Assembly: GCA_964017065.1 (NCBI GenBank)
Contig: OZ024785.1
Coordinates: forward strand, 8,059,672 to 8,123,671
DNA length: 64,000 nt
Direction: 5' to 3'
Source: Haliclona indistincta
Lineage: Eukaryota > Porifera > Demospongiae > Haplosclerida > Chalinidae
The translations under genes were made by a program, and so were the position numbers. Numbering within the stretch: position 1 is the stretch's first letter; every line of letters begins with the position of its first letter. Shown here one piece after another: positions 9,671 through 62,834 of the stretch. The notes below the pieces were generated by a model. The model was not told the DNA's origin and did not search any database. It saw only the letters and a program-made list of their open reading frames with translations.

Positions 9671-12016
9671 ATGGTCGGACAAATGGCCGGACGCAAACGT
9701 GGGCCAGCTACTCAGTTTGGTGACAGCGATGTACCAGCTAAAAAGCGCCAACTAACGAAGGCCACGTTCAACAAGTGGCAGCATGAGCACGAGAAGGACC
9801 ACCTCACTCGTTCTTGGCTACGATGCGATCTACAACAAGACCAGCGCCACGTGGCGTCTCTTCGTTGCGAGGTATGCACAAAACATAGAAGCCACCTGGA
9901 GAGCATGAAGAACTTTTCGAAGACCTGGGTGACTGGTTCAACAAACCTGAAAGTTAGCAATGTACTTGAGCATGCTACTAGCGAGGTTCATAAAGCAGCA
10001 ATGACTCGTATGCATAGTGAATCAGCGAAAGCGCGAGGCGAGTCAGTTGTACTACAGACGCCAATCGGGCGTAGCCTTTGTACGCTGGACGATGCTACAA
10101 GATTACAAGTGGCAAAAAGGTTTGATGTAGCCTACGTAATGGCCAAGGAAAGCGTACCTTTTGCCAAGTATCCATCGATCGTCGAACTGGAACAGCGCCA
10201 TGGGGTGGATCTAGGTCACGCCTACAACACACAGGAATCTGCAAAAAAATTCACAGCTTATATAGCCAGAAGCCAAAAGCATGCATTCCTATCCAAACTG
10301 TTTAGTGAAAGCCACTTCTATAGCTTGCTAATGGATGGGAGTACAGATGCTGGCAATGTAGAAGATGAGCTGATAGTTCTAGTGTACTGCAATAAAGACG
10401 ATGCCAACCAACAAATGAAGACATGCACACGTTTTCTAACTATTGAAGCTCCCAAAAAAGCTGATGCTAGTGGTTTAGTGAAGTGTGTAGATAAGGCTGT
10501 AGAGATCCTTGGTGTAGAGAATGTTTTGAATAGAGATAGTGTTCTCTCTGTTGAAGGCAAACATGTGTTGGTTGGTATGGGTACAGATGGTGCTAGTGTT
10601 AACATTGGCGATCGAGAAGGTCTAAAAGGACAGCTTCAGCGAGCTTTGCCATGGTTGTTCTGGGGTTGGTGCTATGCTCATAGACTAGAGTTGGCCTGTA
10701 AGGATGCATTTTCAAGTACGCTTTTCTCATCGGTAGATGAAATGCTCCTTCGCATCTACTACTTGTATGAGAAGTCACCAAAGAAATGCCGTGAGCTTGA
10801 AAGCATTGCAAAAGAGCTAAAGGAAGTGTTCGATCTAGTTAAAGGTGGGGATCGGCCTATTCGTAGCTGTGGGACTAGGTGGATTACTCATAAGCGCAAT
10901 GCTTTGCAACGCATAGTAGACCGTTATGGTGTTTACATAGCACATCTTTCTGCACTTGTGGAAGACACTTCTCTGAAATCCACTGACAGAGCTCGCTTGA
11001 AAGGTTACCTGATGAAGTGGAAGAGCTCCAAGATACTAGTTGCGTGCTGTCTGTATATAGAAGCTCTTAAGCCAGTATCTATCCTTAGCCTGACAATGCC
11101 AGAAGATTCTACTGATGTTGTCAGCTGTGTAGAAAGCACTCTAAGATCATCCAGAGCTCTTCAGTCATTGACAGAGAAGAACCCTGGTTTGTGGTCTACT
11201 ATTGAATCTTTAAAAAGATCTGTGAAGGAGGTTGATGGTGAGCTAGAGTACCAGGGTGTTGCTGTGGACAACATTGACAAAGTTGTTGATCAGTGCAAGA
11301 AACATGTACTAGCTGATATTGACAGGTTACAACAGAGACTCAAAGATCGACTTTCTTGGACAGACACAAGCTTGTTGAGGTCTCTGCTTGTTCTGATGGA
11401 AACTCAATCCTGGCAGCCTAGAGATGAAGATGATGGCAGTAAGGCTGTCTCAGATGTTAAGGAAGCAGCTGAGCACATTGTGTCAATATTCCGTAAACCG
11501 CTAGAATCAAGAGGTGTGTGCATTCCTAGCATCCAGGATGAGCTTGAGGAGGCAGTAGAATATGCCCAGCAGTACCTAGCAATAGGAAGAGAGAAATACA
11601 CTCACATCTGGTACAAACTGCATACATCTCCGAATGCACAAAGATGGCCTAACCTCCTACTGCTTTGTGAGCTTCTGTTCAGCCTGCCGTTTACAACTAG
11701 CCGAGTAGAACAGATGTTTTCCATAGTAAAGAATGTCAAGACAAAGCGCAGGAACTGCCTTCACGTAAGCACTCTGTGTGACCTACTTGAATTGAACATT
11801 GAAGGGCCTTCTCTGAGTCAGTTTTCTGCTGATGCAGCTGTGGACTTGTGGTGGACAGATTGCTGTACTACACGCAGAGTAAACCAGAACCCACGTAAAG
11901 AATACACGAGAAGGGGAGGCACCACCAGTCAGAGTGAGAGTGTTGAAGACAATGAAGAGTCACAGCAGCCTTTTGTGCTTGATGACTGGGATAGTTGGAT
12001 GTCTGCTGAAGACTGA
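9671..12016 (+). CDS. hAT-family transposase (ZNF862-like), intact
   Basis: This is a 781-aa intronless frame. An N-terminal TTF-like zinc finger is suggested by the CEVC pair (about residues 67-70) and later histidines. The core has LLMDGSTDAGN and GMGTDGASVN, the two catalytic aspartates of hAT enzymes, with WCYAHRLELACKD between the second aspartate and the helical insertion. The C-terminal dimerisation region carries LPFTTSRVEQMFSIVK, which holds the expected glutamate. The product would bind element ends and cut and paste DNA in the nucleus. The closest family by pattern is the ZNF862/KIAA1586-like group. Complete reading frame plus recognisable ends suggest recent activity. A second ATG at 9686 is an alternative start. 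Confidence 0.9.
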   Translation: MVGQMAGRKRGPATQFGDSDVPAKKRQLTKATFNKWQHEHEKDHLTRSWLRCDLQQDQRHVASLRCEVCTKHRSHLESMKNFSKTWVTGSTNLKVSNVLEHATSEVHKAAMTRMHSESAKARGESVVLQTPIGRSLCTLDDATRLQVAKRFDVAYVMAKESVPFAKYPSIVELEQRHGVDLGHAYNTQESAKKFTAYIARSQKHAFLSKLFSESHFYSLLMDGSTDAGNVEDELIVLVYCNKDDANQQMKTCTRFLTIEAPKKADASGLVKCVDKAVEILGVENVLNRDSVLSVEGKHVLVGMGTDGASVNIGDREGLKGQLQRALPWLFWGWCYAHRLELACKDAFSSTLFSSVDEMLLRIYYLYEKSPKKCRELESIAKELKEVFDLVKGGDRPIRSCGTRWITHKRNALQRIVDRYGVYIAHLSALVEDTSLKSTDRARLKGYLMKWKSSKILVACCLYIEALKPVSILSLTMPEDSTDVVSCVESTLRSSRALQSLTEKNPGLWSTIESLKRSVKEVDGELEYQGVAVDNIDKVVDQCKKHVLADIDRLQQRLKDRLSWTDTSLLRSLLVLMETQSWQPRDEDDGSKAVSDVKEAAEHIVSIFRKPLESRGVCIPSIQDELEEAVEYAQQYLAIGREKYTHIWYKLHTSPNAQRWPNLLLLCELLFSLPFTTSRVEQMFSIVKNVKTKRRNCLHVSTLCDLLELNIEGPSLSQFSADAAVDLWWTDCCTTRRVNQNPRKEYTRRGGTTSQSESVEDNEESQQPFVLDDWDSWMSAED

Positions 12017-30374: not shown

Positions 30375-32033
30375 CTATATTGCTGTGATTACTACTAGAC
30401 TGCCACGCAGTTGTTGATTGACCTCTTTAATTGTCTTCTCTTGTGTTAGATATTTCTCATAAATGTCTTCTACCACCTGTTGTTGGTTATGCTCCGTTGG
30501 TTCATCTCGCATTCTTCTTTGGTACTTCACTGCAACGATGACAAACATTACTGTGAAAATGAGTGACAGCAAAGCCTTTATACTGGCAATTCCTAAAAAG
30601 CAGTCAATTTGTTCCAAGGCAGCTATGCTAAGGTTAACCATGTAAGCTGAATACCAAATACCAATAAGAAGTCCTTGCATGTTATGTGGAGACTGAGCTA
30701 GAATAAACTCGAAAACTGTCAAGAACACAAGTAGGAAGGTAAGTCCTGTTAGCATTTGTGGTATCATGACCCACTGATAGCTGAACGGCAGTTGAGTACT
30801 GTTGTTACTGACAATGAGTCTTAGAGTAAGGTTATCATAGTATGAGCAAGCGTCAACACTATAGGTTGTCTCTATATGGTGTGCTAAAAATCCTTCAAGC
30901 ACTTGCAAAGTGCAGAGACTCGAAATTTGAAGGACAAATCCAATGAATACTCTTTTGAGCATAGTTGTCAAGTATCGATAAAATAACGGCTTTATTAACA
31001 GCTGGTAAATAGGAATTCCAAAGAATATGACGAACATACTCATTCCAAATATCTGAATTGTGATAAAATTGAAACCGTACTCCTGCATTTGTTCAGGTTG
31101 AGCTAGTGCCCGTATGTGATTGCTTGTGAGGCTTGACTGGTCTTGGAAACGAAATGCAAGCAGAGACACTAGCAAGAGAAAGATCCTGAGAAATGATTTC
31201 ACATCTTCTACCTGCTCGGTAGTGAATGGTCCTCCATAACGTTGCTTGGCTAAGTCCATGCGAGAGGGCAGCTCTCCATAGGTGAATGCACTTCTCAGTT
31301 CAGGGTACTTGTGCTTGGCAGCGTATCTAAGCACATTTTGAACCTGTTTCAGAGGATTTATTTGAGGAAGTTTAATGGACAGAATCCACCTGTACTTCCA
31401 TGCTAGTAGAAATACTACTGGAATGAACACAAGTTGAGCAATGCATGCGTATAGAATAGTGTATCGAGCTGCTGTTGGGAAATCAAAAAAGATTGTCAGA
31501 ATTGTAAGCAGGACGTTTATCCAGCCTTGGCCAAAAAGCAGAGTCCAGAAGAACCAGTGCACGTAGGCGCTCAACTGATCTGATGATGCTGTCGGCATCT
31601 GGATTGAGCCCATTTGCATCGCATTGGGTTCAAACAGTGCTAGTCCAATGCGCACTAATCCAAAGCAGCATATCATCACAGCCCACAAGTACCAGAGCTC
31701 GCGTGCTTCATCAACGTAGTTCATAGTGAACACGAGCGCAGTGATGACGATGGTCGCCACTGTTTGGAAGCAAAGACCAACTACCATAACTCCTAGTCTG
31801 CTCCACGTGTCTGCCAAGATGCCCGCTACCGGATAGAACAAGAACCCGACTAGCTGCGCCAACGGGAATATTATGAACAGGTACCGAATGAAACTCGGCG
31901 GTCCGTACGTACCCAGCACCACATATCCAATACTGTAGTCCGTCAGCTGATGCATTAGAGTGCCCCATATCAGCACGATCACGGCTCCTCGCGAGGTTAC
32001 TGCGTGCCTCCTCCATCGATTCAAGAGACGCAT
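30375..32033 (-). CDS. POT/SLC15-like major facilitator transporter, copy 1
   Basis: Single exon, 552 aa from ATG 32033 (MRLLNRWRRH). About 12 hydrophobic segments are present. The central loop HKYPELRSAFTYGE, then DLAKQRYGGPFTTEQVEDVK, is characteristic of the POT/PTR2 (proton-coupled oligopeptide transporter) family of the MFS, in a subgroup common in invertebrates. The VAGILADTWSR segment corresponds to the conserved loop between helices 2 and 3. The N-glycosylation site NNST lies in a large outer loop. It is a tandem paralogue of the next gene, 225 bp away, same strand. Substrate cannot be read from the sequence; peptides or nitrate-like solutes are the family range. Confidence 0.9.
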   Translation of the reverse strand: MRLLNRWRRHAVTSRGAVIVLIWGTLMHQLTDYSIGYVVLGTYGPPSFIRYLFIIFPLAQLVGFLFYPVAGILADTWSRLGVMVVGLCFQTVATIVITALVFTMNYVDEARELWYLWAVMICCFGLVRIGLALFEPNAMQMGSIQMPTASSDQLSAYVHWFFWTLLFGQGWINVLLTILTIFFDFPTAARYTILYACIAQLVFIPVVFLLAWKYRWILSIKLPQINPLKQVQNVLRYAAKHKYPELRSAFTYGELPSRMDLAKQRYGGPFTTEQVEDVKSFLRIFLLLVSLLAFRFQDQSSLTSNHIRALAQPEQMQEYGFNFITIQIFGMSMFVIFFGIPIYQLLIKPLFYRYLTTMLKRVFIGFVLQISSLCTLQVLEGFLAHHIETTYSVDACSYYDNLTLRLIVSNNSTQLPFSYQWVMIPQMLTGLTFLLVFLTVFEFILAQSPHNMQGLLIGIWYSAYMVNLSIAALEQIDCFLGIASIKALLSLIFTVMFVIVAVKYQRRMRDEPTEHNQQQVVEDIYEKYLTQEKTIKEVNQQLRGSLVVITAI

Positions 32034-32263
32034 CTTCAAAGTGCTTGAGTATTGGTAGGCGGGGCTGGTTGCTGCAGTCCAGACGTGTCGTCTACACCGA
32101 GGTTTACACTACCACCACCACACTACTACACTACCGTTGCTGCTGTTGCTTACTACTACCACTACCACTACTACTACCGCTAAAACCTTTATAGCACACC
32201 TTGAGCTAATACGATAATAAGGGTTGCCGATTGTCCACAAAAATAAAACAGCTACTTGTTGTT

Positions 32264-33925
32264 CTATGTTACTGGTGTGATCACTACCAGACTTCCTTCA
32301 TCACGCGTTTCATTGGCTTTTACTGTCCTTTCCTGTGTTAAGTACTTCTCGAAAATGTCTTCCACGACCTGTTGTTGGTTATGCTCAGTTGGTTCATCTC
32401 GTATTCTTCTTTGGTACTTTACTGCAACTATGACAAAAAATATTGTAGAAATCAGCGAGAGTAAAGCCTTTACACCTGTATTCCCTAAAAAACAGCCAAT
32501 TTGTTCCAAGACAGCAATAGCAAGGTTTGCCGTGTAAGCTGAATACCAAATACCAATCAGAAGTCCTTGCATGTTATATGGAGACTGAGCCAATATGAAC
32601 TCAAATACTGTCAAGAACAGAAGTAGGAAGTTAAGTCCTGTTAGCATTTGTGGTATCATGACCCACTGATAGCTGAACGGCAGTTGAGTACTGTTGTTAC
32701 TGACAATGAGTCTTAGAGTAAGGTTATCATAGTATGAGCAAGCGTCAACACTATAGGTTGTCTCTATATGGTGTGCTAAAAATCCTTCAAGCACTTGCAA
32801 AGTGCAGAGACACAATATCTGAAGGACTAATCCAATGAACATTCTTTTAAGCATTGTTGTCAAGTATCGGTAAAAGAGAGGCTTTACGAACAGCTGATAG
32901 ATAGGAATTCCCACAAATATGACAAAAATACTCATTCCGAAGATTTGGATTGTGATAAAATTAAAACCGTACTCCTCCATTTGTTCGGGTGAAGCAAGTG
33001 CCCGTATGTGATTGCTTGTGATACCTGACTCATCCTGGAAGCGAAATGCAAGCAGAGACACTAGCAAGAGGAATATTCTGAGAAATGATTTCACATCTTC
33101 CACTTGCTCGGTGGTAAATGGTCCTCCATAACGTTGCTTGGCTAGGTCCATGCGAGAGGGCAGCTCTCCATAAGTGAATGCACTTCTCAGTTCAGGGTAC
33201 TTGTGCTTGGCTGTATACTTGAGAACATTTCGAATCTGTTTCAGAGGATTTATTTTAGGAAGTTTAATGGACAGAATCTTCCTGTACCTCCATACTAGCA
33301 GAAATATCACTGGAATAAATATGACTTGAGCAGTACACGTGTAGAGAATAGTGTAGCGAGCTGCTGTTGGGAAATCCAGGAATATTGTGAGGATTATAAG
33401 CAATATGTCTATCACGCCTTGTCCAAACAGCAGAGTCCAGAAGAACCAGTGTACATAAGCACTCAACTGATCCGATGATGCTGTCGGCATCTGGACTGAG
33501 CCCATTTGTATCGCATTAGGTTCAAACAGTGCTAGTCCAATGCGCACTAATCCAAAGCAGATTATCATTACAGCCCACAAGTACCAGAGCTCGCGTGCTT
33601 CATCGACGTAGTTCATAGTGAACACGAGCGCAGTGATGACGATGGTCGCCACTGTTTGGAAACAAAGACCAACTACCATGATTCCTAGTCTGCTCCACGT
33701 GTCTGCCAAGATGCCTGCGACCGGATAGAACAAGAACCCGACTAGCTGCACCAACGGGAATATTATGAACAAGTACCGACTGAAGCTCGGCGGTCCGTAC
33801 GTACCCAGTACGAGGTATCCAATGCTGTAGTCGGTCAACTGGTGGATCAAGGTGCACCAAACCAACACTATCACGGCTCCTCGCGAGGTTATCGCGTGCC
33901 TCTTCCATCGATCCAAGAACGGCAT
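32264..33925 (-). CDS. POT/SLC15-like major facilitator transporter, copy 2
   Basis: Single exon, 553 aa from ATG 33925 (MPFLDRWKRH), chosen because it aligns with the start of copy 1; in-frame ATGs upstream (33937 and 34003) would add a poor leader. The fold and motifs are the same as in copy 1. A 180-nt tract (32632-32811) is identical to 30740-30919 of copy 1 while flanking sequence differs at many positions, pointing to gene conversion. The upstream gap 32040-32263 holds CCA/CTA triplet repeats. The intergenic distance to the kinase gene downstream in coordinates is about 90 bp. Confidence 0.9.
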   Translation of the reverse strand: MPFLDRWKRHAITSRGAVIVLVWCTLIHQLTDYSIGYLVLGTYGPPSFSRYLFIIFPLVQLVGFLFYPVAGILADTWSRLGIMVVGLCFQTVATIVITALVFTMNYVDEARELWYLWAVMIICFGLVRIGLALFEPNAIQMGSVQMPTASSDQLSAYVHWFFWTLLFGQGVIDILLIILTIFLDFPTAARYTILYTCTAQVIFIPVIFLLVWRYRKILSIKLPKINPLKQIRNVLKYTAKHKYPELRSAFTYGELPSRMDLAKQRYGGPFTTEQVEDVKSFLRIFLLLVSLLAFRFQDESGITSNHIRALASPEQMEEYGFNFITIQIFGMSIFVIFVGIPIYQLFVKPLFYRYLTTMLKRMFIGLVLQILCLCTLQVLEGFLAHHIETTYSVDACSYYDNLTLRLIVSNNSTQLPFSYQWVMIPQMLTGLNFLLLFLTVFEFILAQSPYNMQGLLIGIWYSAYTANLAIAVLEQIGCFLGNTGVKALLSLISTIFFVIVAVKYQRRIRDEPTEHNQQQVVEDIFEKYLTQERTVKANETRDEGSLVVITPVT

Positions 33926-34014
33926 CTTTCCGAGCATGCACGCGTAAGTGGGGGCGGGGCTGATTTGCGCAAAAAAAATTATGACAACCACTTGCAAATA
34001 CAATGTAGCTAGCT

Positions 34015-36703
34015 CTACAGCATGCTAGTGAAGGTGCGCTCGAGTTTCCCAAACGTGGGTCGATCAGCTGGATTGTAGTTCCAGCATTTCATCATGACTT
34101 GGTAGACCTCTTGTGGGCAGTTTCTTGGACGTGACATCCTGTAGCCTCGCTCGATCATTGCCAGCAATTCCTTGTTATAGATTCCTGGATAGGGCCTGCG
34201 TCCCTGAGTGAATGTTTCCATGAGGAGTATGCCGAATGACCAGACATCAGACTTAGAAGTAAACTTGTTTTCTTTAGCAGCTTCAGGTGCTGTCCACTTG
34301 ATTGGAAAGAAGGATTCCGTCGAGTGGAGAGTGTCACTGATGTGAATAGCAAGACTGAAGTCAGCTATTTTCACTTTGTTTTCTTCACCAATTTGTATGT
34401 TTCTTGCTGCAAGATCCCTGTGAATATATTGTCGTTCTTCTAGGTACTTCATTCCACTCGCAATCTGTTGTGCAATAATGGTTAGCTGCAACATCTCGAG
34501 ATTCCGTCCCTCCATTTTCTGCAGGTAATCAATCAGCTGTCCTTGAGCCATGTACTCAGTGACCATGAACGCTGGTTGGCGTTGACAGAAGCCATAAACC
34601 TGCAGTAGATTCTCATGGTTGAATTTCCTCATCATCTCTGCTACTGCAACAAAACGACTAACTGTCATGCCCTCTGAGCTGTGTATCTTGATCGCAACTG
34701 TGAATCCCTTCCACATTCCTTCCCAAATCTCACCAAAGTGATCGGCACTAGTACAATGCCTGAAACTAACTTGAGAGCGTTGAATCTCCCAATTCGTTGC
34801 TGAAGGGGTCTCTGACTTAGGGCATGGAGCGGCTAGTCGACAACAAATTCCATGAGAATTTGTCATGTGTTCTTTTACAAACTCTTCTACTGAGTGGAAC
34901 TTGTTCTTTGGAGACACACAGAAGAGGCCCTCTTCAGTGACTTTAATACGATAGTGTTTGACTTCATCATAAAATCGAACTACCAGAGAGTAGTTGTCAA
35001 GATTTGCGTCACTTTCTCTGATAAGAAAAGATCCATTTGGGTCTCCACATAGGACCAATTTCTTGTTGGCATCCGCTTGTTTGATTCTTCCAAAATACCA
35101 TCTTTAGTGACAATAAATAATTATTCATCAATAAAATCGCAGCTTACTTCTCTGGGCACACATGGTTACTGGGTATCCATCCCTCTTTGTTTGTTAGTAA
35201 GGAACGGGCTAGCCACGTGATTCCATCAGGCTTATAGATTATATTCAACTTTTCTCCTGAAGTAGTATAATGAATGACAGGTCAGTAGTTCGGTATTAGT
35301 AGTACCTTTAACAAAGCTGAGATTTTCTGCTAGATATTGAGCTTCAAACGTGTACAGAGCCACTACAATATCATATTTCTTGCTGCTTCTCCCTTTAAAA
35401 TGTGAATAGTTATTCAAATTAGCAGTACATGTACACACAGCAGTTCAACAGTACTTTCACTCTAAGAATATTGTTTTGTAAATGTATTTTTAACAGTATC
35501 GTGTACACATACCTACTGGCTTAGGTGCAACTGGTGGACCTCGTGATGGTCTAGGAGATTGTGGTTTAAAGGAAGTGTATGGTACAATAGGATCTGTTGA
35601 AGAGTGACTCGATGAGAGGAAGCGTCACTAGTTGCCTTACCTTTAGAGTTGGGAGCTGAGGGTATTGAGGAAGTTGATGACTTGGATGAGAATGGTGTAC
35701 TGAAGGGAGATGAATTCTTTGATTCTATACACGAGAGTTGTGTAACAAGTTGTTTAAGGTTAATAGTGGCGCGCTTACGTTTTTGACAGATGAGCTCATG
35801 CCGTGATGGATAGGAGCCAATGGTTTCTGCTATAGACTGCAAACTAGTAAGTACATCTCTAGCACTTGGACGTGATTCGGGATCATTCTGAAGGCATTTG
35901 TGAATTAGGTTTCTGTGTGAATGGTCCTCCTTGAGCTCTGCCAAGTAGTCCTTCCTGCGATCAATCTCTGGTACTCTGCGGTACACATTGCTGCTATTTG
36001 ATGCACTGACAAACTCTTCAGTAGGAACAGGCCATTTGTTGACACACATGTGAAGTGTGAGGACTCCGAATGAGAACACATCCAGTTTAGTGTTGTAGGT
36101 AGGCTTTGCTGAGAGAGCCTCTGGTGGCATGTAGGCTACTGTGCCAGGCTGTTTAGTGAACTGACGTGAGAAATGATTATCAATAATAATCTTAGCCACT
36201 CCAAGATCAGCAATTTTAGCAACAAAGTGGCTGTTGAGCAGGACATTGTTGGAAGTGAGGTCGCGATGAATGATGGGAGGACTCTGATTGTGCAAGTGGA
36301 GCAGTCCCTGAGCTACATCTATCAGCATGTCATTCTTTAGCGTCAGTGCTAAGCTAGGATACCTATCCAGACACTTTGATAGTGTCATTTCCATCATCTC
36401 TAACACCATCAAAGGCAGGCTTGCTTGAGGAGAGGGGAAATATACTCCTAGTAACTGGACTATCTTAGGATGGCGCTGACGACTGTGCTGAAAGCATTCT
36501 TCTACAAACTGTTGGACAATCTGTCCGCATTCCTCACGACTTGTTTCCAGCAGTATCTGATGAAGTTTCTTTCCGGCGCATCGCAGTCCATTAACATCGA
36601 CTTCCACAACCACTCCATATGAGCCACGACCCAGCTCATTGTCCTTCACTGTCACACCAGAGAGCTGCAGAACCTTTAGCTGCTCACGAGCATTCACAGC
36701 CAT
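34015..36703 (-). CDS. Dual-kinase protein: TKL kinase + SH3 + SH2 + Src-like kinase, copy 1
   Basis: Six exons on the minus strand: 36703-35779, 35724-35641, 35593-35513, 35392-35306, 35256-35148 and 35101-34015. They total 2373 nt, in frame, giving 790 aa. Residues 1-300 form a TKL-type kinase: GRGSYGVV loop, HRDLTSNN, DLGVAK. A Ser/Pro-rich linker with GPPVAPKPV (an SH3-ligand type PxxP) follows. SH3 begins YDIVVALYTFEA and ends GWIPSNHVCPEK, and SH2 has SFLIRESD. The last domain is a Src-like tyrosine kinase with VAIKI, HRDLAARN and KWTAPEA. The tyrosine kinase domain has DFS instead of DFG, a poor glycine loop, no activation-loop tyrosine and no inhibitory tail. The last two exons match the paralogue at 37086-40085 in length (109 and 1087 nt). 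No myristoylation site. It is likely a cytoplasmic signalling protein; its partner and substrates are unknown. Confidence 0.88.
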
Positions 36704-37085
36704 AACAGTCTATTTGGAAAAGAAGTCTACAATATCTGATTGTTAACATGCACTTGCCTTGTCTGCCGACGAGAAAAATCACTCAGTTTACTGATGCTGT
36801 GTGTGACACCAAATATGGTTCATGTTATATAGTAGGGTTTTGGTATATGATGACGTCACATGTATTGCTTAAAATAGCCTTCTTATAAATCCTTTATCGA
36901 CCGTTTGTGCATAGAATATTCTGCTACTAACAATTGTTTTGCCTCGCACACTATGGGCTATGTCAACTATTGGCTGTGTAGTTTATAAGGTTTAGCATAA
37001 CTTGTTGTGCTGTTTTTGTTATGAATCGCATTTGGAGTGGTAAAATTTGCATTGCACTTGGTTTCACCATCACAACGCGTGCAGT
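36704..37085. promoter_or_regulatory. Shared divergent promoter of the two dual-kinase genes, with a CRE palindrome
   Basis: 382 bp separate the two start codons. TGACGTCA, the full CREB/ATF site, lies at 36851-36858. The site is short enough to arise by chance, but its position midway between two divergent paralogues makes a shared control region plausible. Confidence 0.5.
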
Positions 37086-40085
37086 ATGGACATCCGAGAA
37101 CAACTGAAAGAGTTGGAACTTACTGATGTTGCCGTAGTTGGTAAAGAGCTTGGTCGCGGCTCTTATGGTGTTGTGATAGAAGTGAAGGTGAATGGATTGC
37201 CGTGTGCAGCCAAGCAACTGCACCAAGTGTTGCAGGAAGCGGGTCAGGAGCTTATTAAATGCCGTTTTGTGGAGGAATGCCTTCAGCACAGTCGTCAGCG
37301 CCATCCTAAGATAGTCCAGCTACTGGGGGTGTATTTCCCCTCTCCTCAAGCAAGCCTGCCTCTGATTGTGCTAGAGATGATGGAGATGACTTTGACTAAG
37401 TGTTTGGAAAAGCATCCAAACTTGCCATCGACACTAAGAAATGACATACTGTTAGATGTAGCTCAAGGCCTGCTCTATCTCCACAATCAGAGCCCTCCCA
37501 TCATTCATCGTGACCTCACTTCCAACAATGTCCTGCTCAACAGAAATTTAGTAGCAAAAATCGCCGACTTGGGTGTTGCGAAATTATTCAACTTCAACCC
37601 AAGTCACTCCAGCCAGCTCACCAAAACGCCTGGTGCAGTGACCTACATGCCTCCAGAGGCTCTAACATCTAGACCTGTATACGACACTAAACTTGACATA
37701 TTCTCATTTGGAGTGCTCATCTTGTACGTTTATACGAACAAGTTGCCCACACCAACCGATGAGTTTGTAATGGAACCAGAGACAGCGCTGTATCGCAGGG
37801 TCACGGAGATCAAGCGCAGAGAGGAGTACCTATTGGAGATGGGAGATGAACACACACACGCTGACCTAGTACGCAATTGCCTCCAAAATCAGCCCAAGTC
37901 TCGTCTGACAGCAGAATTAGTGGTCCGCTGTTTGCAGGCTATATCTTCAAAAATTGGGTGCTTCCCAAGCAGGCTAGACTTGCTTGAAGGCAAGCAATAA
38001 CTTTGCAATAAAGCAACTAAATTTTCTTTTTTTTCAGATCCTGGAAATTTTTCCTTCTTTCCATCTTCTTCTCTCCCTCTAACTACTCCTCCCAGCAACA
38101 CTAAAAGCTCTTCTTCCTCTTCTACTCAATCTGAAGCCTCTCCGCTCCCTGTTTCTCCCTCAACCCCCACGTCTCCCACCACTGATGAAGCAGACAGTGA
38201 TTCTCCACCTGTCAGGGCCTACACATTTTCTAGAAGAAGCGCTGTCATTTATACCAACAAGTTCAGAGCTAGAAAATTGACTGGTCCAAGTTCTGATTCA
38301 GCACTCTCTAAGAAAATATCATCTTCAGGTGTGTGTATAGTAGCATACATTGAGAGATCAACATGCATTTTTGTGAAATGGTTACAGAAAATAATTAGTA
38401 CTGTGCAGAGGATGCATTGCCAGTTATTATTTTGCAAAATCAGCTAGTTAATTGGTTTGTTGTCAATACTTTGGACTAAAAACACTGCCTACGCTCATGA
38501 TAAACTTTCACTACCTGATTGCGTAACAGCAACTTTCACTGCCTGATTGCGTAACAGCAACTTTCATTGCCTGATTGCGTAACAGCATAACTTTCACCAC
38601 CAATAGCTCATTTGGAGCCTAGCATAATTATTGTGAACTAAATCTATAATGATCTTGTTTTGATGAGTGTGTTCTTGTGTACTAGGTATAGGTGATGATG
38701 TTACAGACTTGGGAGGAGATCTTGTTGTTAAAGCCCTTTACAAGTATGACCCACTAGGTCCTAGAGATCTTGCCTTCAACAAAGGTACCTTGTGTCCCTA
38801 GAACCTTTTCTAGAAGTCCATCTTCTTTGTAGATGAAACACTTCAGATACTGAACAAGTCCAGTAGGATGAAGTGGCTAGCTCGCTCTCTCAAGACAGGA
38901 AAGGAAGGGCACTTACCAAGCAGCTATGTGATACCAGCTGAGTGAGTCCCTTTTCCATTTGTAAAGCACATTAATTTGTCTTTTTTCTTGTATCGCAGAT
39001 GGTATTTTGGTAAAATGAAAACCACCACAGCTCAGAAAAAGCTTCTCCAGGATGGTATCGAAACAGGCACCTTTCTGATTAGAGAGAGTGACAGCTATCC
39101 TGACAACTTCTCTCTGTCTGTTCGATTTCATAGAACTGTCCGTCACCACACCATCAGTAAGACACCTAACAACAGTTTCTACATCGTTCCTAAGTCGATG
39201 TGCAATACAATAGAAGGTCTAATCAGGCACTATATGACAGCGTGCAATGGACTGTGTTGCCAATTGACAGTGCCTTGCCCGAAAAATGATCGCCCGTCAG
39301 CTTATCGATGGGAGACAGATCACTCACAGATCAACCTCAAACGTTGTATCGGTACGAGCATGCTTGGTGAGGTGTGGGATGGAGTTTGGAAAGAGACCAT
39401 TCCAGTTGGTATCAAAATCAGAAATGCCGACGTGATGTCATGCTCTCGGTTTCTCTCCATTGCTGAGATCATGAAGAAACTCAATCACGTGCAGTTGATA
39501 CAGCTCTATGGAGTGTGTACTACAGAGCCGATGATGCTCGTGACTGAGTTCATGAAGTACGGCTGCCTTGTTGAATATCTTCAAAGACCAGGAAGGGGTT
39601 GTAACCTCAAGCTACCAGTACTCGTCGACATGGCTAAACAAATAGCCAGCGGAATGTCATATCTGCAATCCCAGTCTTACATTCATCGAGATCTTGCTTC
39701 CAGGAATATGCAAGTAACTGAAGGCAACAGAGTGAAGATAGCTGACTTTAGTCTGACGATACACAGCAGTAGTCCTCCATCTCAATCCACCTTGGTACCT
39801 GTCAAATGGACCGCCCCTGAAGCTGTCAAGGAGAATCGATTCACTAGCAAGTCCGATGTTTGGTCGTTTGGTGTTTTCCTCATGGAACTAGTCACTCGTG
39901 GGTCCATACCATTTCCACAGAAGCCGATCGAAGAGGTGCTGCTCATGGTTGAGCAAGGCTATCGCATGCCTTGCCCGCATCAGTGCCCCGATCCCCTCTA
40001 TCAGATTATGATGGATTGCTGGAAACTAGACCCTAAAGAACGACCGACATTTGATCAACTGTATGCAACTTTGAAGGACTTCTGA
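37086..40085 (+). CDS. Dual-kinase protein: TKL kinase + SH3 + SH2 + Src-like kinase, copy 2
   Basis: Five exons: 37086-37989, 38038-38328, 38686-38784, 38833-38941 and 38999-40085; 2490 nt, in frame, 829 aa. The TKL domain has G23-x-G25-x2-G28, K43, HRD at 141-143, N148 and DLG at 161-163, so it looks catalytically complete. Intron 1 starts GCAAGC, a GC-AG intron. A Ser/Thr/Pro linker (about 302-400) precedes SH3 (VVKALYKYD to GHLPSSYVIPAE). SH2 starts at W469 with phosphotyrosine-binding FLIRES (Arg 496). The C-terminal tyrosine kinase retains the VAIK-type lysine (VGIKI), HRDLASRN and WTAPEA but has D717-F718-S719, no tyrosine between there and WTAPEA, and ends ten residues after RPTF, so it lacks the Src tail. 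The N-terminal domain replaces the usual lipid anchor. An alternative reading as two genes is disfavoured by continuous phases and the matching paralogue. Confidence 0.9.
38506..38590. repeat. 28-bp tandem repeat in an intron of dual-kinase copy 2
   Basis: Three units of actttcactgcctgattgcg type lie within the 357-bp intron between the linker and SH3 exons. Confidence 0.85.
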
Positions 40086-47622: not shown

Positions 47623-47716
47623 ATTCCATGCCCACCTGGTATGTATACCATTTACACTCGGTATTGTGCTAATAAACCCTCGTGTATATGGTATACACAC
47701 CTGGTAGGCATGGAAT
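47623..47716. repeat. Small foldback MITE at the truncation point of GH5 copy 1
   Basis: attccatgcccacctggtat on the left is matched in reverse by cacctggtaggcatggaat on the right. It ends about 10 bp before the first codon of the truncated cellulase copy, so it may mark the break. The terminal word resembles the end of the MITE at 13305 and 54139. Confidence 0.75.
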
Positions 47717-47725
47717 AACTACTAC

Positions 47726-48304
47726 ATGGACAATGACAAGGTGATTTTCGAGCTATTCAATGAGCCTTTTCCCGATGGTGGACAATGGAACAGCACTGAA
47801 GGATGGAGATGCTTCAGAGAAGGTGGTTCCTGCTCTGGTGTGAACTACCAAGCAGCTGGCATGCAGACCTTGCTCAATGCTGTAAGAGGAACTGGAGCTA
47901 AGAATGTGATTCTAGCTGGGGGCTTGGCTTGGTCTAACTCTCTAGCCCAATGGCTGCAGTACAAACCCACTGATCAGCTCAACAACCTTGGTGCCTCTTG
48001 GCATAGCTACAATTTCAACTACTGCAAGGAAAAGAGTTGCTGGGAGACCTCTGTGGGCAGAGTGAAGGCACAATACCCAGTCGTGGCAACAGAGTTTGGA
48101 GAGAATGACTGTAGTGGAGGATATGTAACTCCTCTCATGCAATGGATGGATTCGGTCGATATGAGCTACCTTGCCTGGACATACAACACATGGGACTGTA
48201 AGTCAGGACCTGCTCTCATTAGCAGCTATGATAATGGGGGCGTACCCACCGGATACGGCACTGCTGTCAAGAACCACTACTCAAAGCTGACTGTGCATGT
48301 CTAA
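47726..48304 (+). pseudogene. 5'-truncated GH5 cellulase copy 1
   Basis: 192 codons almost identical to the second half of the complete gene at 61718-62834. It begins at MDNDKVIFELFNEPF, keeps the acid/base glutamate (NEP) and the nucleophile (ATEFGEND), and ends TVHV with the same stop. It lacks the signal peptide and the first half of the barrel, so it cannot fold as an enzyme. The first ATG is internal methionine of the full protein. It is followed by the same 300-bp spacer and SMB gene as the other copies. Confidence 0.85.
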
Positions 48305-48649
48305 CTACAGCATGGGAATCAAGTTATACTAACAATACTACATAGTGTGAACAGGCGTACATTGTAATTATTGAACATGTACACAATGTGAACAGTTCTT
48401 GGTAACACACACTAAGTATGTTACTTTAACTAAAATTATATTAACAATAGCTATAATTAAACATGCTACCTAACTTGCAACAAGGCTGAACACATGGTGA
48501 TACAGCATGTTGTGGCGTGCAGTGCAAAACATGGTCACATTGCCAGATACATGTATGTAGGAGTCCATATATGGTAAGCCAGACCATTACTGTTCCTGCT
48601 AGTTACGGCACTATCAGTGATCTTCAATAAACTGTCAGTGCTTGCTGCA

Positions 48650-51600
48650 ATGGCTAACACATGTTGCGTTTTAATTGTGCTACTCCTGATAGTGAACTTG
48701 TGCCAGAGTCAAATCTCCTGTGATGAGTCTGAATGTAGAGCTAACTTGACAAGAGTAAACTGCAAGTGTGACAATGATTGTGGACTCTTTAATGACTGCT
48801 GTTCGAACTACACACTAACTAACCAATCACGACCAAGCTATCTGCACCAGCTGTTAGAATGCCAGGGAATGGTAACTATCAACAAGACAGACTTTATTGA
48901 CTTATTATCTCATAGCAGTGTGCTAATGGTGTCAAGATGCCCATCAGAAATGAACAATTCTCAATGCGGCAATCAATCACTCTTCCTACCAGTCACTGAT
49001 CCACGCTCAAACTTCACTTTTCGCAACATCTACTGTGCTCTATGCAACAACATTACCCTGGAACAAGTCGTGCTGTGGGAACCTCAATTCTTTTGTCCTG
49101 ATGTGTCTGTTTTCCACCTACATAATATAACATATGATACTGTTCTAAAGGAATGTGACTTATTGACAATTTCCACTGATCTCCCATTCTCTCGGATTCG
49201 TACATGTGTACCACACATTTCCACGTGCTCTAACACAAGTAGCTCAGAGCTTGAACACAACTGTACCAGCAAATCAGTCAATCTGGTTGTAGATCGGACT
49301 TTTGATGGTGTAAAAGTATACAGGAATCACTACTGTGCACTATGTAATGGAGCTTCTTCCACACAATGCTGGATCAAGTCCCCTCATCCATTTTTTGATT
49401 TCGGTAAGTTACACTTAAAATTCAGGGGCGGTGGCAAGGGGAAGCAATTGTTCCACAGTAGGGAAGCACTGTTCCCCTACTGTACTGTACTCACTCAGCT
49501 GACTACAGATATATAATTGCCTAAACAGCATAGCTACTTAAGTGGAAAGACTTATATGATGTTTTTTATTATTATACAGGACCGTATAAAACAAAATTGA
49601 GTGTATCGTGGAACCACTTCTTGACCATCAATGTAACAGTCTCTGGTTTTCCACCCCCTCCACCCCTTCCACCCCCTCCACCCCCTCCACCCCTTCCACC
49701 CTCTCCACCCCCTCCATCCCTTCCACCCCCTCCACCCCCTCCACCCCCTCCACCCCCTCCACCCCCTCCACCCCCTCCACCCCCTCCACCCCTTCCACCC
49801 CTTCCACCTACTACTAGTCCTAGTCTTCCACCTACTATAGCTACTAGCCCAACACAATTTTGCTCGAGTTTGTATTCTTGCGCAGAAAACAATACAGAAC
49901 GGATATGTAGCTGTGATGAATCATGCTCCTTATATGGAGATTGTTGTCATGACGTACAACAACTGAACAGTACAAGCAATATTAGCAGCGGAAACATTTA
50001 TAATATGGTGTCTTGTGTTCAAACGAGCTTTCCAGACCAACATGGTTATGAGAAGCCAGCTTACTATTACAATGCATACTTCATGGTCACCGCTTGTCCT
50101 CAGCAGTGGGTCTCCTCCCATTCAAACCAACAAACAGCACAGCAAATCCTCCATTCCTGCACTAACTCGTCTCTCTCACCAGTAACTGATCTAACAACCA
50201 ACCTCACCTTTCGCAACACATACTGTGCTCAATGCAACAACATCAATCATACCCAACTAGTGCATTGGAGTGCAAGCTACATCTGTGACACAGACGGCTC
50301 AATCGTTATCAACAGCTTATCAAGTATCAGGAAATATTGCCAAATTTCGGATTTCAGTACCACTGTTAAGACTAGATCTTGCAAAAGACTGGTTTCATCA
50401 TGCCCAAATACTTTTGACAATCAAAGTGTGATATTCCAGTGCAAAAATAATGGATTGGAAATCAACATAGAGGATCAAGTTCTTTTCAAAAACAGGTGGT
50501 GTGCAGAATGCAATGGAGCTATCAATTCTGGATGTTTTGTACTTTGCAGTGAGTGCTTAGCCAATTCTCCTGGACAATTCCCACCACCAAGTAAGTGACA
50601 GTGCTAAATAAAATTGTACTTTCTAGGTAAAAATAAAAATTATGCTGCTGTAATAATAAAGCACCAAAGGTGCAGATGTCTCGGTGGAATGCCACCATTT
50701 CACATACACAGTACTTTAGCTATTATACCTTTCGGTACAGCAAATCAGCAATCACAATGCAGTAATACCCGTACTTATCACCTTGTCTGCTCCTGTAACA
50801 CATGTCATTCCTCTGGTCTTTATATTTATTGTTTAGTGTAGATTAATTTTAATTATCACGATGTTTCTGTTTTATTTCTTGTGCATTTGTTTTGGTTTGT
50901 TGTTGTTCTGGATCTATATAATTATTATCTGTGGAGTCCATCAGCAGTAAACTTGGCTTAATTTTCGGTCTATTGTACTTCCTTTCTGTATGCTGGTGCA
51001 AAGTCTGATAATAATAATAATAAAAATTCAACTCCCACAAAAATATACATATAGTTAGGTTACAGTAGACCCTCACTAATCCGATCAGCCCCGTTCCGGG
51101 GGGTGTTCGGATTAGTGAATTTGTTCGGATTAGAGAAATGGGCGTATTTATTCACTACTGACCACGCCCCTACATGAATTTTCGCGTTTCACGGCAATAA
51201 TGGCGACTACTAGCGCGCAGTTCTCTGTCCACAGCAGGGGCGTAGCTAGGATCTGAACATTGGTCGGGCACTTGGAGCGCACTGCAAAAATGTTGCTCGT
51301 TAATGTTATGGTATACTTGCGTCCTGAAGATCGAAAGTGATGATCAGGGTCCAAGACTGTCGAAGTAGTTAATAAGAGCGCTTGCATGGGCATTATGTAG
51401 GAGTAGCCAGTAGTCTGGGGTTCAGGCAACGTTTGGAATCAAAACAGGAATGGCTGGGCACAGCCTATGATTGGGTGGGCACAGGCCCACCCATAGCTAC
51501 GCCACTGGACTCCAGTGTTGTTCGTGGTCATCTTGTTTACAAGAAGATATGGACACCGCATCTTGGAGAAATTCTGGACCTGCATCCAGAAGTTGGCAAC

Positions 51601-53787
51601 AGGTACGATAGACTTGCTGTCGTAGTCATTGCGCAGCTAGCTCCCTACTGGCGCTCAAATAGTTGGACGCGTACCGATAGAGTTGTCAGAGCGCTTCTGC
51701 AAGTTTTTAAGGGATGGTGGCAGCCTGGCAGGATTGTCTACGCTACGCGCGCAAACACCAATATACTTTTTTTTTTATGGCAATTAAGACAGGTACATGA
51801 TGTAACGAGTAGGTAAAAATAAAAATAAAATTTAAGTAGGACCAATTCAGATTTTGTTAAGAAAAATATTAAAGCAGTTTAACCGGATCCATTGCCCTCT
51901 GCAATGGCTAAAGTTAGAGTATCTGTCTTTAGGTTAAAGGGCTTAGATTTTGTGGATCTGGTTCCTTGCAAGCACATGAGTGTGGAGCGCAGTAGAGCGA
52001 AACTCACTCGACTCCTCAGAAAACCCATTATCTGACCATAGGAAGAATCATGTTTTTCAGCGAGAAGGTTTCCAATTCTTTTCAGAGTCAAAGTAGCGGC
52101 GGGGCCTATTCCTCCAGTACATGCGTATGCCTTATTACACAACAAAAAATTTTTTAATGTAATGATTCATGAATATTAATGAGCCGAATCTTCATTCGGA
52201 TTAGCGAGGGTACGGATTAGGGTTGTTCGGATTAGTGAGGGTCTACTGTATTGACAAAAGCTACTGGTAAAGGGATTGCAAGTTGCTTGACCAGAAATTT
52301 GCTGCTAGCGCATGCGCACAGTACGATTTCTGTACAATTAGTATACAGAAACACGCTATGGGCATGCACTAACAGGAAATAGTTTGTCAAGCAACCTGCA
52401 GTCCCCTGTACAGCAACAGTATATGAATCTTAAACTACAAATTAATTATAATTTTCTTAATCTAGAGTTTGAATTCAGCAGATTTCTTGATGTTACTGGC
52501 ACCGGACAAATAACGCAGAAAGTTCAATACACAATCAGAGTTTACTGCAAACTTGGTGAAGTGTACGATAGAAACACAGGTCAATGCAGGAGTATATTTG
52601 CCCCATTACCCAATATAACTCTCGATTATGAAGACAAGGAATTGAACTATACAGCTGAAGAAACAAACAGTAGCAAGACTACAGACACTATCACACCTAA
52701 TAATGATCCATTCAACTGTACATTAACTCTGATTGCACTAAATTCAAGTGAGTACGTGAGAGTGGATAATCACACAATACTCTACCAAGATCAACCATTC
52801 AAGATTGTCACTCGAGATCATCTTGATAGACCTGTCATCTGCATTAACCTGACTAACAATGGAACACGGTTAGTGAATGCTACTATAGTAGTAACACCAC
52901 TGGCATTCATAGTACTAACATACATTGGTAGTAGCCTCTCCATCCTCGGTAGCATAGCAATTCTACTAACTTATTCTATCTTTCGTGAGCTAAGGTCTCT
53001 GCCCAGTAAGATCCTCATGAACCTAGCCACAGCATTCCTAGTGAGTGATCTACTCATTCTGCTGTATGGTGCATCATCTGTCAGTCCATTCACACTGGAA
53101 GGTACAGCTACAATGGCTATTCTTCTTCACTTCTTTATGCTCAGTCGGTTCAGCTGGATGAGTCTCATGGCATTTGAGTCTTGTAGAGTGTTTGGTCTTG
53201 CTGTCAAACTGCAGTCAGACATTTCAAAGAAATCTAAAACCATACTCCTCATGGCCTATCTGGTCATTGGTTGGGGTCTCCCCCTCACCATCACATTAAT
53301 CACTATTATTATCAACTATGCTACTGATGGTCTAGTGTTGTATGGCGAGACCAGTAATGGTACCGTAGGCCCTCCATGGATCAACCACCCACCCTCTGCT
53401 GCTGTAGCTTTCTTGGCACCTATTGTTCTGGCTCTTCTGTTCAATGCTGCAGCTTTCATAGCATCAAGCGTGCTACTGTGCAAAGCAGCTTTTAGTGAAC
53501 AAAGAAGCGGCAGTAAAAATGGTGCAAACTTGCGTTATTTCCGTGTTATTGTAGCTCTCTTCTCTGTCATGGGTCTGACATGGCTGTTTGGGTTCCTGGC
53601 TCTGATCGGTCAAATGAATTGGGCATGGTACCCATTCATTATTCTGAACAGCTCTCAAGCACTGTGGATCGCTGCCACATTTCTACTGACAAAGAAGATC
53701 ATCAAACTCTACTGTCACAAATTTAAACCAGAAGAAACTAAAACGTTTGAGCTTAAAGACAACAGTAAAAAGAGTCTCAACCATTAA
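48650..53787 (+). CDS. Somatomedin-B adhesion-type 7TM receptor
   Basis: Three exons, 48650-49403, 49580-50590 and 52466-53787, joined in frame: 1028 aa. The signal peptide (MANTCCVLIVLLLIVNLCQS) is followed by a somatomedin-B domain (CKCDNDCGLFNDCC) and a 200-residue Cys-rich module with FRNIYCALCNN and YRNHYCALCNG. A long proline tract and a second SMB domain (CSCDESCSLYGDCC) plus second module follow. Then comes a Cys-poor stalk and seven hydrophobic helices from about AFIVLTYIGSSLSILGSIAI to YPFIILNSSQALWIAATF, including LMNLATAFLVSDLL and MGLTWLFGFLAL, which are class B/adhesion GPCR signatures. Many NxS/T sites. No clear GPS cleavage motif. It is a plasma-membrane receptor with unknown ligand. 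ATG 48650 is preferred; the frame upstream has only GTG. Confidence 0.88.
49649..49818. repeat. Coding minisatellite giving a poly-proline tract
   Basis: Nine-base units ccaccccct/ccacccctt are repeated about 18 times within exon 2 of the SMB receptor and encode nearly uninterrupted proline. The unit length is a multiple of three, so copy changes keep the frame. A long, stiff spacer between the two ectodomain halves is the likely effect. Confidence 0.9.
51061..52250. mobile_element. pogo/Tigger-like element in the last intron of the SMB receptor
   Basis: Ends CAGTAGACCCTCACTAATCC face each other with TA outside (51061-51062 and 52249-52250), the classic pogo/Tigger form. Instead of a transposase it carries foreign pieces: a plus-strand stretch with VRGHLVYKKIWTPHLGEIL and GNRYDRLAVVV near 51517-51640, resembling HIRAN-like proteins, and a minus-strand stretch with GIGPAATLTLKRI and FALLRSTLMCLQGTRS near 51950-52110. 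Both are fragments. Confidence 0.8.
51235..51507. mobile_element. hAT MITE nested in the pogo-like element
   Basis: Starts CAGGGGCGTAGCTAGG and ends ATAGCTACGCCACTG, the common hAT terminal form. Flanks gtccacag and gactccag agree at five of eight bases, an imperfect 8-bp duplication. Confidence 0.75.
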
Positions 53788-61717: not shown

Positions 61718-62834
61718 ATGGTCAGTAAAGCTGAAGTGTTGTTGCTGCTGTTAGTGGCTGTGACTGCAGGTCACAGCTATGACTTGTCTGGTATTAGAGT
61801 GGATGGAAACAAATTCATGAACAACAAGAATGAAGTTGTAGTGCTGCGAGTGAGTTCATTCATCATGAGTGAATTTATGGTGGTGACTATCATACATTTT
61901 GCAGGGCCTGGACCATTCTGGTACTGAGTATATGTGTGTGCAAGGTTATGGTATATTTGATGGTCCTCATAACAGCACTCTAGTCAATGGTCTGAAAGAA
62001 TGGGGCAGTAATGCAGTACGAGTACCATTGAATGAGGATTGCTGGTTAGGCATCAATGGTGTCAAGCCACAGTATGCAGCTGAGAACTACCAGAATGCTA
62101 TAGGAGAGTATGTCCGTATGTTGACTGATGCTGGCATGGTAGCTATTGTGGAACTGCACTGGACAGCGCCTGGTAGTGATAAAGCTACTGGGCAGAAGCC
62201 TATGCCTGATATGGACCATTCTGTTGAATTCTGGAAATCAGTTGCTAAGTTCTTTATGGACAATGACAAGGTGATTTTCGAGCTATTTAATGAGCCTTTT
62301 CCCGATGGTGGACAGTGGAACAGCACTGAAGGATGGAGATGCTTCAGAGATGGTGGTTCCTGCTCAGGTGTGAACTACCAAGCAGCTGGCATGCAGACCT
62401 TGCTCAATGCTGTAAGAGGAACTGGAGCTAAGAATGTGATTCTAGCTGGGGGCTTGGCTTGGTCTAACTCTCTAGCCCAATGGCTGCAGTACAAACCCAC
62501 TGATCAGCTCAACAACCTTGGTGCCTCTTGGCATAGCTACAATTTCAACTACTGCAAGGAAAAGAGTTGCTGGGAGACCTCTGTGGGCAGAGTGAAGGCA
62601 CAATACCCAGTCGTGGCAACAGAGTTTGGAGAGAATGACTGTAGTGGAGGATATGTAACTCCTCTCATGCAATGGATGGATTCGGTCAGTATGAGCTACC
62701 TTGCCTGGACATACAACACATGGGACTGTAAGTCAGGACCTGCTCTCATTAGCAGCTATGATAATGGGGGCGTACCCACTGGATATGGCGCAGCTGTCAA
62801 GAACCACTACTCAAAGCTGACTGTGCATGTCTAA
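61718..62834 (+). CDS. GH5 endo-beta-1,4-glucanase (cellulase), complete
   Basis: Two exons, 61718-61849 and 61905-62834, in frame: 353 aa. The signal peptide is MVSKAEVLLLLLVAVTAGHS. The TIM-barrel opens with VVLRGLDHSG, has WGSNAVRVPLNEDCWLG, VAIVELHWTAPG (the conserved His), VIFELFNEPF with the acid/base glutamate, NLGASWHSYNF, and ATEFGEND with the nucleophile glutamate. All catalytic residues of family GH5 are present, so a secreted enzyme cleaving cellulose-like glucans is expected. The two truncated copies at 47.7 and 56.0 kb are nearly identical over the shared region, so the duplications are recent. Whether the gene came into animals from microbes is not decidable here. Confidence 0.93.

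Follow-up and report, generated by a model that had tools for sequence, protein, structure and literature searches.

Head-to-head sponge genes predicted to place a TKL kinase in front of a degenerate Src-type SH3-SH2-kinase module

The gene pair and its surroundings

The window, which is the whole stretch of 64,000 nucleotides of Haliclona indistincta DNA that was analysed, harbors two head-to-head genes, copy 1 at 34015-36703 on the minus strand and copy 2 at 37086-40085 on the plus strand. Their start codons lie 382 nt apart, and the region between them (36704-37085) presumably acts as a shared bidirectional promoter of both copies. In both genes the splice models join in one frame a TKL kinase, a Pro/Ser-rich linker, SH3, SH2 and a Src-type kinase domain (TK), in that order. 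Pfam matches for each copy comprise two kinase domains, SH2 (64 and 67 bits for copies 1 and 2) and SH3 (31.6 and 33.4 bits), all over the cut-off.

The model of copy 1 consists of five exons of 1063, 81, 87, 109 and 1087 nt, together 2427 nt encoding 808 amino acids. Exon 1 (35641-36703) covers the TKL kinase domain and a Ser/Pro-rich linker, as indicated by the open frame, the splice model and the Pfam kinase match, whereas exon 2 (35513-35593, splice model) encodes a Pro-rich linker in which an RxxPxxP-type stretch is recognized by eye. The first and second halves of SH3 are encoded by exon 3 (35306-35392) and the 109-nt exon 4 (35148-35256), both from splice model and Pfam. The 1087-nt exon 5 (34015-35101, with the stop codon at 34015-34017) encodes SH2 and the degenerate Src-type kinase domain, for which open frame, splice model, Pfam, tree and motif alignment agree. 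Exon 1 contains a further in-frame intron candidate of 54 nt (35778-35725, GT..AG), so the coding length may be either 2427 nt or 2373 nt, both models being equally compatible with the sequence; the 2373 nt given in a preliminary description of this DNA applies if the candidate intron is removed, and otherwise the length is 2427 nt. The database queries were made with a version of copy 1 of 807 amino acids, in which exon 2 ended 3 nt early at a non-GT site and one linker Val was missing.

Copy 2 is likewise modelled with five exons, of 904, 291, 99, 109 and 1087 nt, and its previously proposed length of 2490 nt (829 amino acids) is borne out by the splice model. Exon 1 (37086-37989) encodes the TKL kinase domain with intact motifs (open frame, splice model, Pfam) and ends at a GC donor, exon 2 (38038-38328, splice model) encodes the Ser/Pro-rich linker, exon 3 (38686-38784) and the 109-nt exon 4 (38833-38941) encode the two halves of SH3 (splice model, Pfam), and the 1087-nt exon 5 (38999-40085, stop codon at 40083-40085) encodes SH2 and the degenerate Src-type kinase domain on the same five lines of evidence as in copy 1. 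Inside intron 2, at 38503-38586, a unit of about 28 nt is repeated in tandem, with three near-perfect copies visible by eye. The last two exons are thus of the same length, 109 and 1087 nt, in both copies. Splice models and Pfam matches confirm the preliminary description in its coordinates, head-to-head orientation, domain order and last two exons. Its proposal that one fused order is older than the duplication is supported as well.

Other open frames in the window were recorded as side observations. The copy 1 stop is overlapped by a few nt by an open frame at 32264-34024 on the minus strand, which is adjacent to a similar long open frame at 30375-32108 on the same strand; both look like membrane transporters by eye, and no Pfam match was found for 30375-32108. 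A hAT-type transposase-derived open frame of 781 amino acids is located at 9671-12016 on the plus strand. Two near-identical GH5 cellulase open frames occur on the plus strand of this apparent animal genome, at 47708-48304 (identified by eye) and 61887-62834 (Pfam Cellulase, 112.8 bits). A secretin-type seven-transmembrane domain (87.2 bits) is found at 52342-53787 on the plus strand, preceded at 48578-50598 by Cys-rich open frames that resemble somatomedin-B repeats by eye.

Fused copies in the genome and in other sponges

A search of the genome with the TKL half listed 128 matches, and the best eight (at least 400 bits) are each followed on the same strand by a Src-type match, whereas none of the 13 best Src-type matches (163 bits and above) lies near any of the other 120 listed; since positions were compared by eye and only the best candidates were scored, these totals are to be read as 'at least'. 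The pairing of TKL and Src-type matches is commoner than chance. The eight copies are the two of the window and six (C2a-C2f) that lie in tandem at 14.189-14.225 Mb of contig C2. The full order TKL-SH3-SH2-TK is found in C2c and C2f, and C2a, C2b, C2d and C2e are without SH2; the linkers of these four allow several near-equal models. C2b has a frameshift in its TK, and C2c has an Ile codon at the position of the C2f start Met. Five of the 13 best Src-type matches are unfused, with no TKL, and four of them were examined (C2:14784249 was left out).

Comparison of C2c (C2:14199494-14201300, L010) with the C2e copy (L011/L012) gave about 93% identity from upstream through the TKL exon, followed by 74-81% in short matches of the tail, with dS values of 0.20 for TKL and 1.47 for TK. 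This pattern suggests exchange or conversion of TKL heads between tails that differ. Patatin-like phospholipase open frames recur by eye between the fused kinases of this cluster (L010:1630-2881 and L012:3774-5024); the one piece that was scanned, L010:1630-2211, scored 27.6 bits against a Pfam cut-off of 27.7.

Judged from the gene models, the TKL and SH3-SH2-TK parts very probably belong to one gene. The intron phases 1,1,1,2 are shared by all four fully modelled genes (copies 1 and 2, C2c and C2f), and the open frame of copy 1 passes from TKL into the linker without a stop. In four of the eight genes the open frames immediately preceding the linker exon and the first SH3 exon were inspected for an ATG, which was absent in seven of the eight frames, the one exception coming from C2f; in copy 2 neither exon 2 nor the open frame just upstream of it has an in-frame ATG. 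Frame, intron phases and the recurrence in eight copies also led us to reject an artefact of splicing by eye.

Unspliced exon 1 of copy 2, on the other hand, runs into an in-frame TAA at 37998-38000, 9-11 nt past the GC donor, with an AATAAA at 38007-38012 that is the sole one on the plus strand across 36.9-40.3 kb, and because of this arrangement copy 2 could also give a TKL-only message. A stop follows directly after the donor in C2b and C2e too, and these two and copy 2 are the three of the eight genes with an AATAAA between TKL and SH3. Such features, the possibility that tandem pairs are duplicated jointly and the unequal identities of the C2c and C2e heads (about 93%) and tails (74-81%, short matches) would fit two genes, a TKL kinase and a separate SH3-SH2-TK, that underwent duplication together, or a locus whose main product is a short TKL-only message. 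We regard this as unlikely since seven of the eight frames inspected near the linker and SH3 exons have no in-frame ATG, and in view of the open frame of copy 1, the conserved intron phases and a fused RefSeq model in another sponge (see below). Moreover, AATAAA is a poor guide here because it is absent within 500 nt past the TK stop in all eight copies, and poly(A) hexamers were set aside as uninformative on gene ends.

A single clade (100/99) unites the eight fused domains in the TK tree. Its sister (100/99) is an intact, short-branched, unfused Src at C2:14772844, which has a 127-nt SH3 exon as do C2c and C2f, and together they fall inside the Src clade (99/99). Tree and Pfam content thereby support the earlier proposal of a TKL kinase in front of a Src module. 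The Src assignment of copy 1 was made by tree because similarity to PDB entries was ambiguous and was rejected as an arbiter between Src and Abl: a Src-Abl ancestor design scored 281.7 bits and an entry labelled as EGF receptor 275.2, followed by further scores of 262.3 for ABL1 and 252.8 for Src. The Abl of the genome groups with Amphimedon Abl (93/85), and inspection by eye of the open frames of at least 80 amino acids in the 9 kb upstream of it revealed no TKL. The main splits of the TK tree recur in the TKL tree, but the eight fused copies do not clearly form a single clade there, since a weak grouping (82/58) places the unfused TKL C10:617441 with the window copies; a constraint that joins the eight without C10:617441 was not rejected in the AU test (p 0.347). 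No TK was seen by eye behind C10:617441, and coiled-coil-like open frames follow it.

For the comparison with other organisms three protein searches were run, each with 8000 candidates scored and the best 120 listed; one used the C-terminal part only and returned mostly Abl proteins. Among the matches listed for the two TKL-bearing queries, five proteins have both SH2 and SH3, namely P0001 from Dysidea avara and four of 448-513 amino acids, which were excluded as dual kinases because they are too short for two kinases. The Pfam scan covered 22 of the 290 returned proteins, so that counts of fusions are a lower bound; within this set, the domain search for two kinases with SH3 and SH2 suggested in the preliminary description found P0001. 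Five further candidates for the same order (P0122, P0123, P0125, P0128 and P0133) were rejected with one SH2, three or four kinase stretches and no SH3, and P0126 with eight SH3 stretches, one SH2 and one partial kinase region. A further TKL subfamily consists of P0011, P0014 (domain content from the listed domains only), P0017, P0021 and P0243, in which a TKL kinase is followed by one to three SH3 domains and which groups with C1:4914236 of the Haliclona genome in the TKL tree.

P0001 is annotated in RefSeq as 'tyrosine-protein kinase Abl-like isoform X2' (931 amino acids), so that a public sponge record named Abl-like contains a second kinase. Similar to the window proteins, it has TKL, linker, SH3, SH2 and a degenerate TK in one chain according to Pfam. 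It differs in that its module is of Abl and not Src origin (ABL1 338 bits versus Src 249.6; grouping with sponge Abls at 94/91), its linker is coiled-coil-like by eye, and its TK reads EFG instead of DFG, its Gly loop being broken and the alphaC Glu kept. Joining the P0001 TKL with the window TKL clade was rejected by the AU test (p 3e-7), and a single fusion event common to the window family and Dysidea was rejected on this result and on the Abl nature of the TK. A third arrangement is found in P0240 (1418 amino acids, ENA-derived), a prediction from a source whose longest contig is 10,135 bases, with the order TKL, coiled-coil-like linker, TK, TK, SH3, TK. Here too a TKL with catalytic residues precedes degenerate Src-type domains (3/3 TKs) and SH3, whereas the three TKs, the lack of SH2 and a TKL of a third lineage set it apart; a fusion common to it and the window family was rejected (AU p 2e-60).

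The fusion would thus have arisen at least twice, because the Dysidea TKL joined an Abl module separately, and the sequences point to at least two independent TKL-TK captures, or three with P0240. Degeneration was seen in every one of the 12 fused TK domains, yet these represent only three events. As a generalization, put forward tentatively and with slightly less than even confidence, TKL-pseudoTK proteins may be a recurrent, mainly sponge invention in which Src or Abl modules were captured independently by at least three lineages of TKL, with loss of TK catalysis and an intact TKL in each case. The earlier statement that no such metazoan family was known stands insofar as the searched open-licence literature yielded no named family of TKL with SH3-SH2-TK, although one may have been described elsewhere. 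The gene pair is not alone in having this order, given the six C2 relatives and P0001.

Kinase motifs and selection

All catalytic positions are kept in the TKL halves of the eight copies and in P0001. The TKL of P0240 also keeps them with one exception: its third Gly-loop glycine is replaced by Ala, a feature it shares with P0011, P0014 and P0017. Among solved structures the TKL half matches CTR1 (84.6 bits), IRAK4 (81.8), ITK (77), Roco4 (74.4) and RIPK2 (70.9); ITK is a tyrosine kinase standing among these matches. With intact motifs and nearest similarity to TKL kinases, the N-terminal half belongs to the TKL group.

The TK motifs were compared at 14 positions in an alignment of 25 kinase domains. 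All eight fused TKs have lost the alphaC Glu (V, I, M or T instead) and the DFG Gly (Ser instead). Six of the eight, i.e. all C2 copies, have also lost both the HRD Asp and the DFG Asp, with HRN and NFS in their place, and in C2d the ATP-site Lys is replaced by Gln. Among the C2 copies the Gly loop was read in five (all but C2b), of which C2c-f have it intact and C2a has it altered. Since HRN/NFS are accompanied by loss of the alphaC Glu and the DFG Gly, the six C2 TKs are predicted to be pseudokinases. The window TKs retain the ATP-site Lys, the HRD Asp, the Asn and the DFG Asp, but both lack the activation-loop Tyr as well as one or two glycines of the Gly loop. These TKs are probably pseudokinases as well, in which weak activity is possible because of the four retained residues. 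In the same genome, the four unfused Srcs examined and Abl keep all 14 positions, as do six of the eight reference kinases, the exceptions being the Csk-like P0076, where the activation-loop Tyr position is Phe, and P0258 (HCD for HRD). An AlphaFold2 model of copy 1 exon 5 from a 12-row alignment has a pLDDT of 83.8 and a pTM of 0.69, although residues 99-102 and 257-264 are modelled with low confidence; that this model is confident carries no information on activity.

Two working kinases in series are unlikely because the Src-type kinase is degenerate in all eight copies, a degeneracy that the preliminary description had overlooked. Some known kinases remain active without the DFG Gly or the alphaC Glu. 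This tolerance, combined with the retained ATP-site Lys, HRD Asp, Asn and DFG Asp, is the argument for both kinase domains of copies 1 and 2 being active, which would make each a dual Ser/Thr and Tyr kinase in one chain. We consider such a dual kinase distinctly unlikely, given that both copies lack the alphaC Glu, the DFG Gly, the activation-loop Tyr and one or two Gly-loop glycines, that six sister copies are without the catalytic Asp, and that the four unfused Srcs examined are unchanged.

Simple Nei-Gojobori counts, with several pairs near saturation, gave dN/dS values of 0.17-0.39 for TKL in nine of ten pairs (the remaining pair was saturated and gave no value) and of 0.08-0.61 for TK in nine of ten pairs (no value for the remaining one). 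Purifying selection is observed in most pairs compared. TK values of 0.37-0.61 among C2a, C2b, C2d and C2e indicate weaker constraint, whereas the value is 0.08 for C2c/C2f and 0.16-0.22 for distant pairs, the latter near saturation. Decay of the family, with the tail a functionless relic drifting since fusion, would account for the C2b frameshift and for the absent SH2 and raised TK dN/dS of C2a, C2b, C2d and C2e, but is very unlikely, as frames are open across all five exons of both window copies and the low TK values of C2c/C2f and of the near-saturated distant pairs reflect past constraint.

Proposed function and comparison with known kinases

We favour, as the probable arrangement, an active TKL kinase that is controlled or positioned in a single chain by a Src-derived SH3-SH2-pseudokinase tail. 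The single mRNA in vivo, the loss of TK activity, the activity of the TKL, the SH2 and SH3 ligands and the control in cis are all inferred from sequence, with residue roles taken from general knowledge of kinases and SH2 domains. Each gene would produce one cytoplasmic protein in which a TKL kinase whose catalytic residues are all present is followed by a flexible linker and an SH3-SH2-pseudokinase module. This C-terminal module would have been captured from a Src gene, and its kinase domain, with catalysis probably lost, would have become a regulatory and docking tail. The SH2 could recruit the protein to phosphotyrosines that the intact Src and Abl kinases of the genome produce, and the SH3 could bind proline-rich partners or the protein's own linker. 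Binding might then release or position the TKL kinase, by which a phosphotyrosine signal would become Ser/Thr phosphorylation, with the pseudokinase as a scaffold or allosteric partner. The two directions of control considered earlier are not equal in this respect: a Ser/Thr-type kinase under SH3, SH2 and pseudokinase is favoured, and the reverse is not.

Several sequence features bear on this proposal. The FLIRES-type phosphotyrosine pocket is kept in the window SH2 domains, whereas replacement of the alphaA2 Arg by Gln or Thr (by eye) counts against it. The SH3 of copy 1 could bind the RxxPxxP-type stretch noted by eye in its own linker; no such stretch was seen in the linker of copy 2. Further points against the proposal are that copy 2 depends on the GC donor with the in-frame stop and AATAAA right after it, that SH2 is present in only two of the six C2 relatives, that the C2b frame is shifted and that an Ile codon takes the place of the start Met in C2c.

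If the favoured arrangement is correct, TKL-pseudoTK proteins would be a reversed-order counterpart of JAK that leads from phosphotyrosine to Ser/Thr phosphorylation within one molecule, and would link phosphotyrosine to TKL signalling in early animals; to our knowledge, such wiring is not known from bilaterians. A TK module that was repeatedly made into a regulatory tail would also show how pseudokinases originate after gene fusion, for which the intact unfused sisters in the same genome serve as controls.

JAK kinases combine a kinase, a pseudokinase and SH2 in one cytoplasmic protein, and the window proteins resemble them in this. However, JAK has FERM and places the pseudokinase first, with both domains of TK type, whereas here the active-type TKL comes first and the pseudokinase last; by order and Pfam content (FERM-SH2-pseudokinase-kinase in JAK) the window proteins are not JAKs.

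The window TKs, being inside the Src clade, share the SH3-SH2-kinase core with Src-type kinases, among them Src-Aque1, which is described as a sponge-specific Src family of the order SH3-SH2-kinase (PMC8662651). That order is present in the window copies, and SH2 is missing from four of the six C2 relatives. Unlike Src-type kinases, the window proteins carry a TKL in front, and the fused copies do not have intact catalytic residues. The window copies end right after the kinase fold, with no C-terminal regulatory tail or its Tyr. Residue 2 is Ala or Asp, and with the TKL kinase at the N-terminus there is no Src-type Gly2 myristoylation or SH4 region.

Dual-domain kinases of Dictyostelium, some with an active and an inactive domain, are reported to have arisen repeatedly (PMC1420674). 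They resemble the proteins described here in that different kinase groups are fused and active domains are joined with inactive ones, and the Shk kinases of that organism are TKL kinases with SH2. By sequence and splice model, the window proteins likewise pair an active-type with an inactive domain, the inactivity of their TK being probable. The Dictyostelium dual-domain kinases described differ in that they join STE, TKL and other groups and not a Src-type SH3-SH2-TK cassette (PMC1420674). Additionally, GPCR-TKL/K and GPCR-TK fusions are reported from choanoflagellates and sponges, as kinase domains captured repeatedly and independently in this part of the tree (PMC12716839); these are seven-transmembrane receptors with the kinase domain at the C-terminus, whereas the window proteins begin with their TKL kinase.
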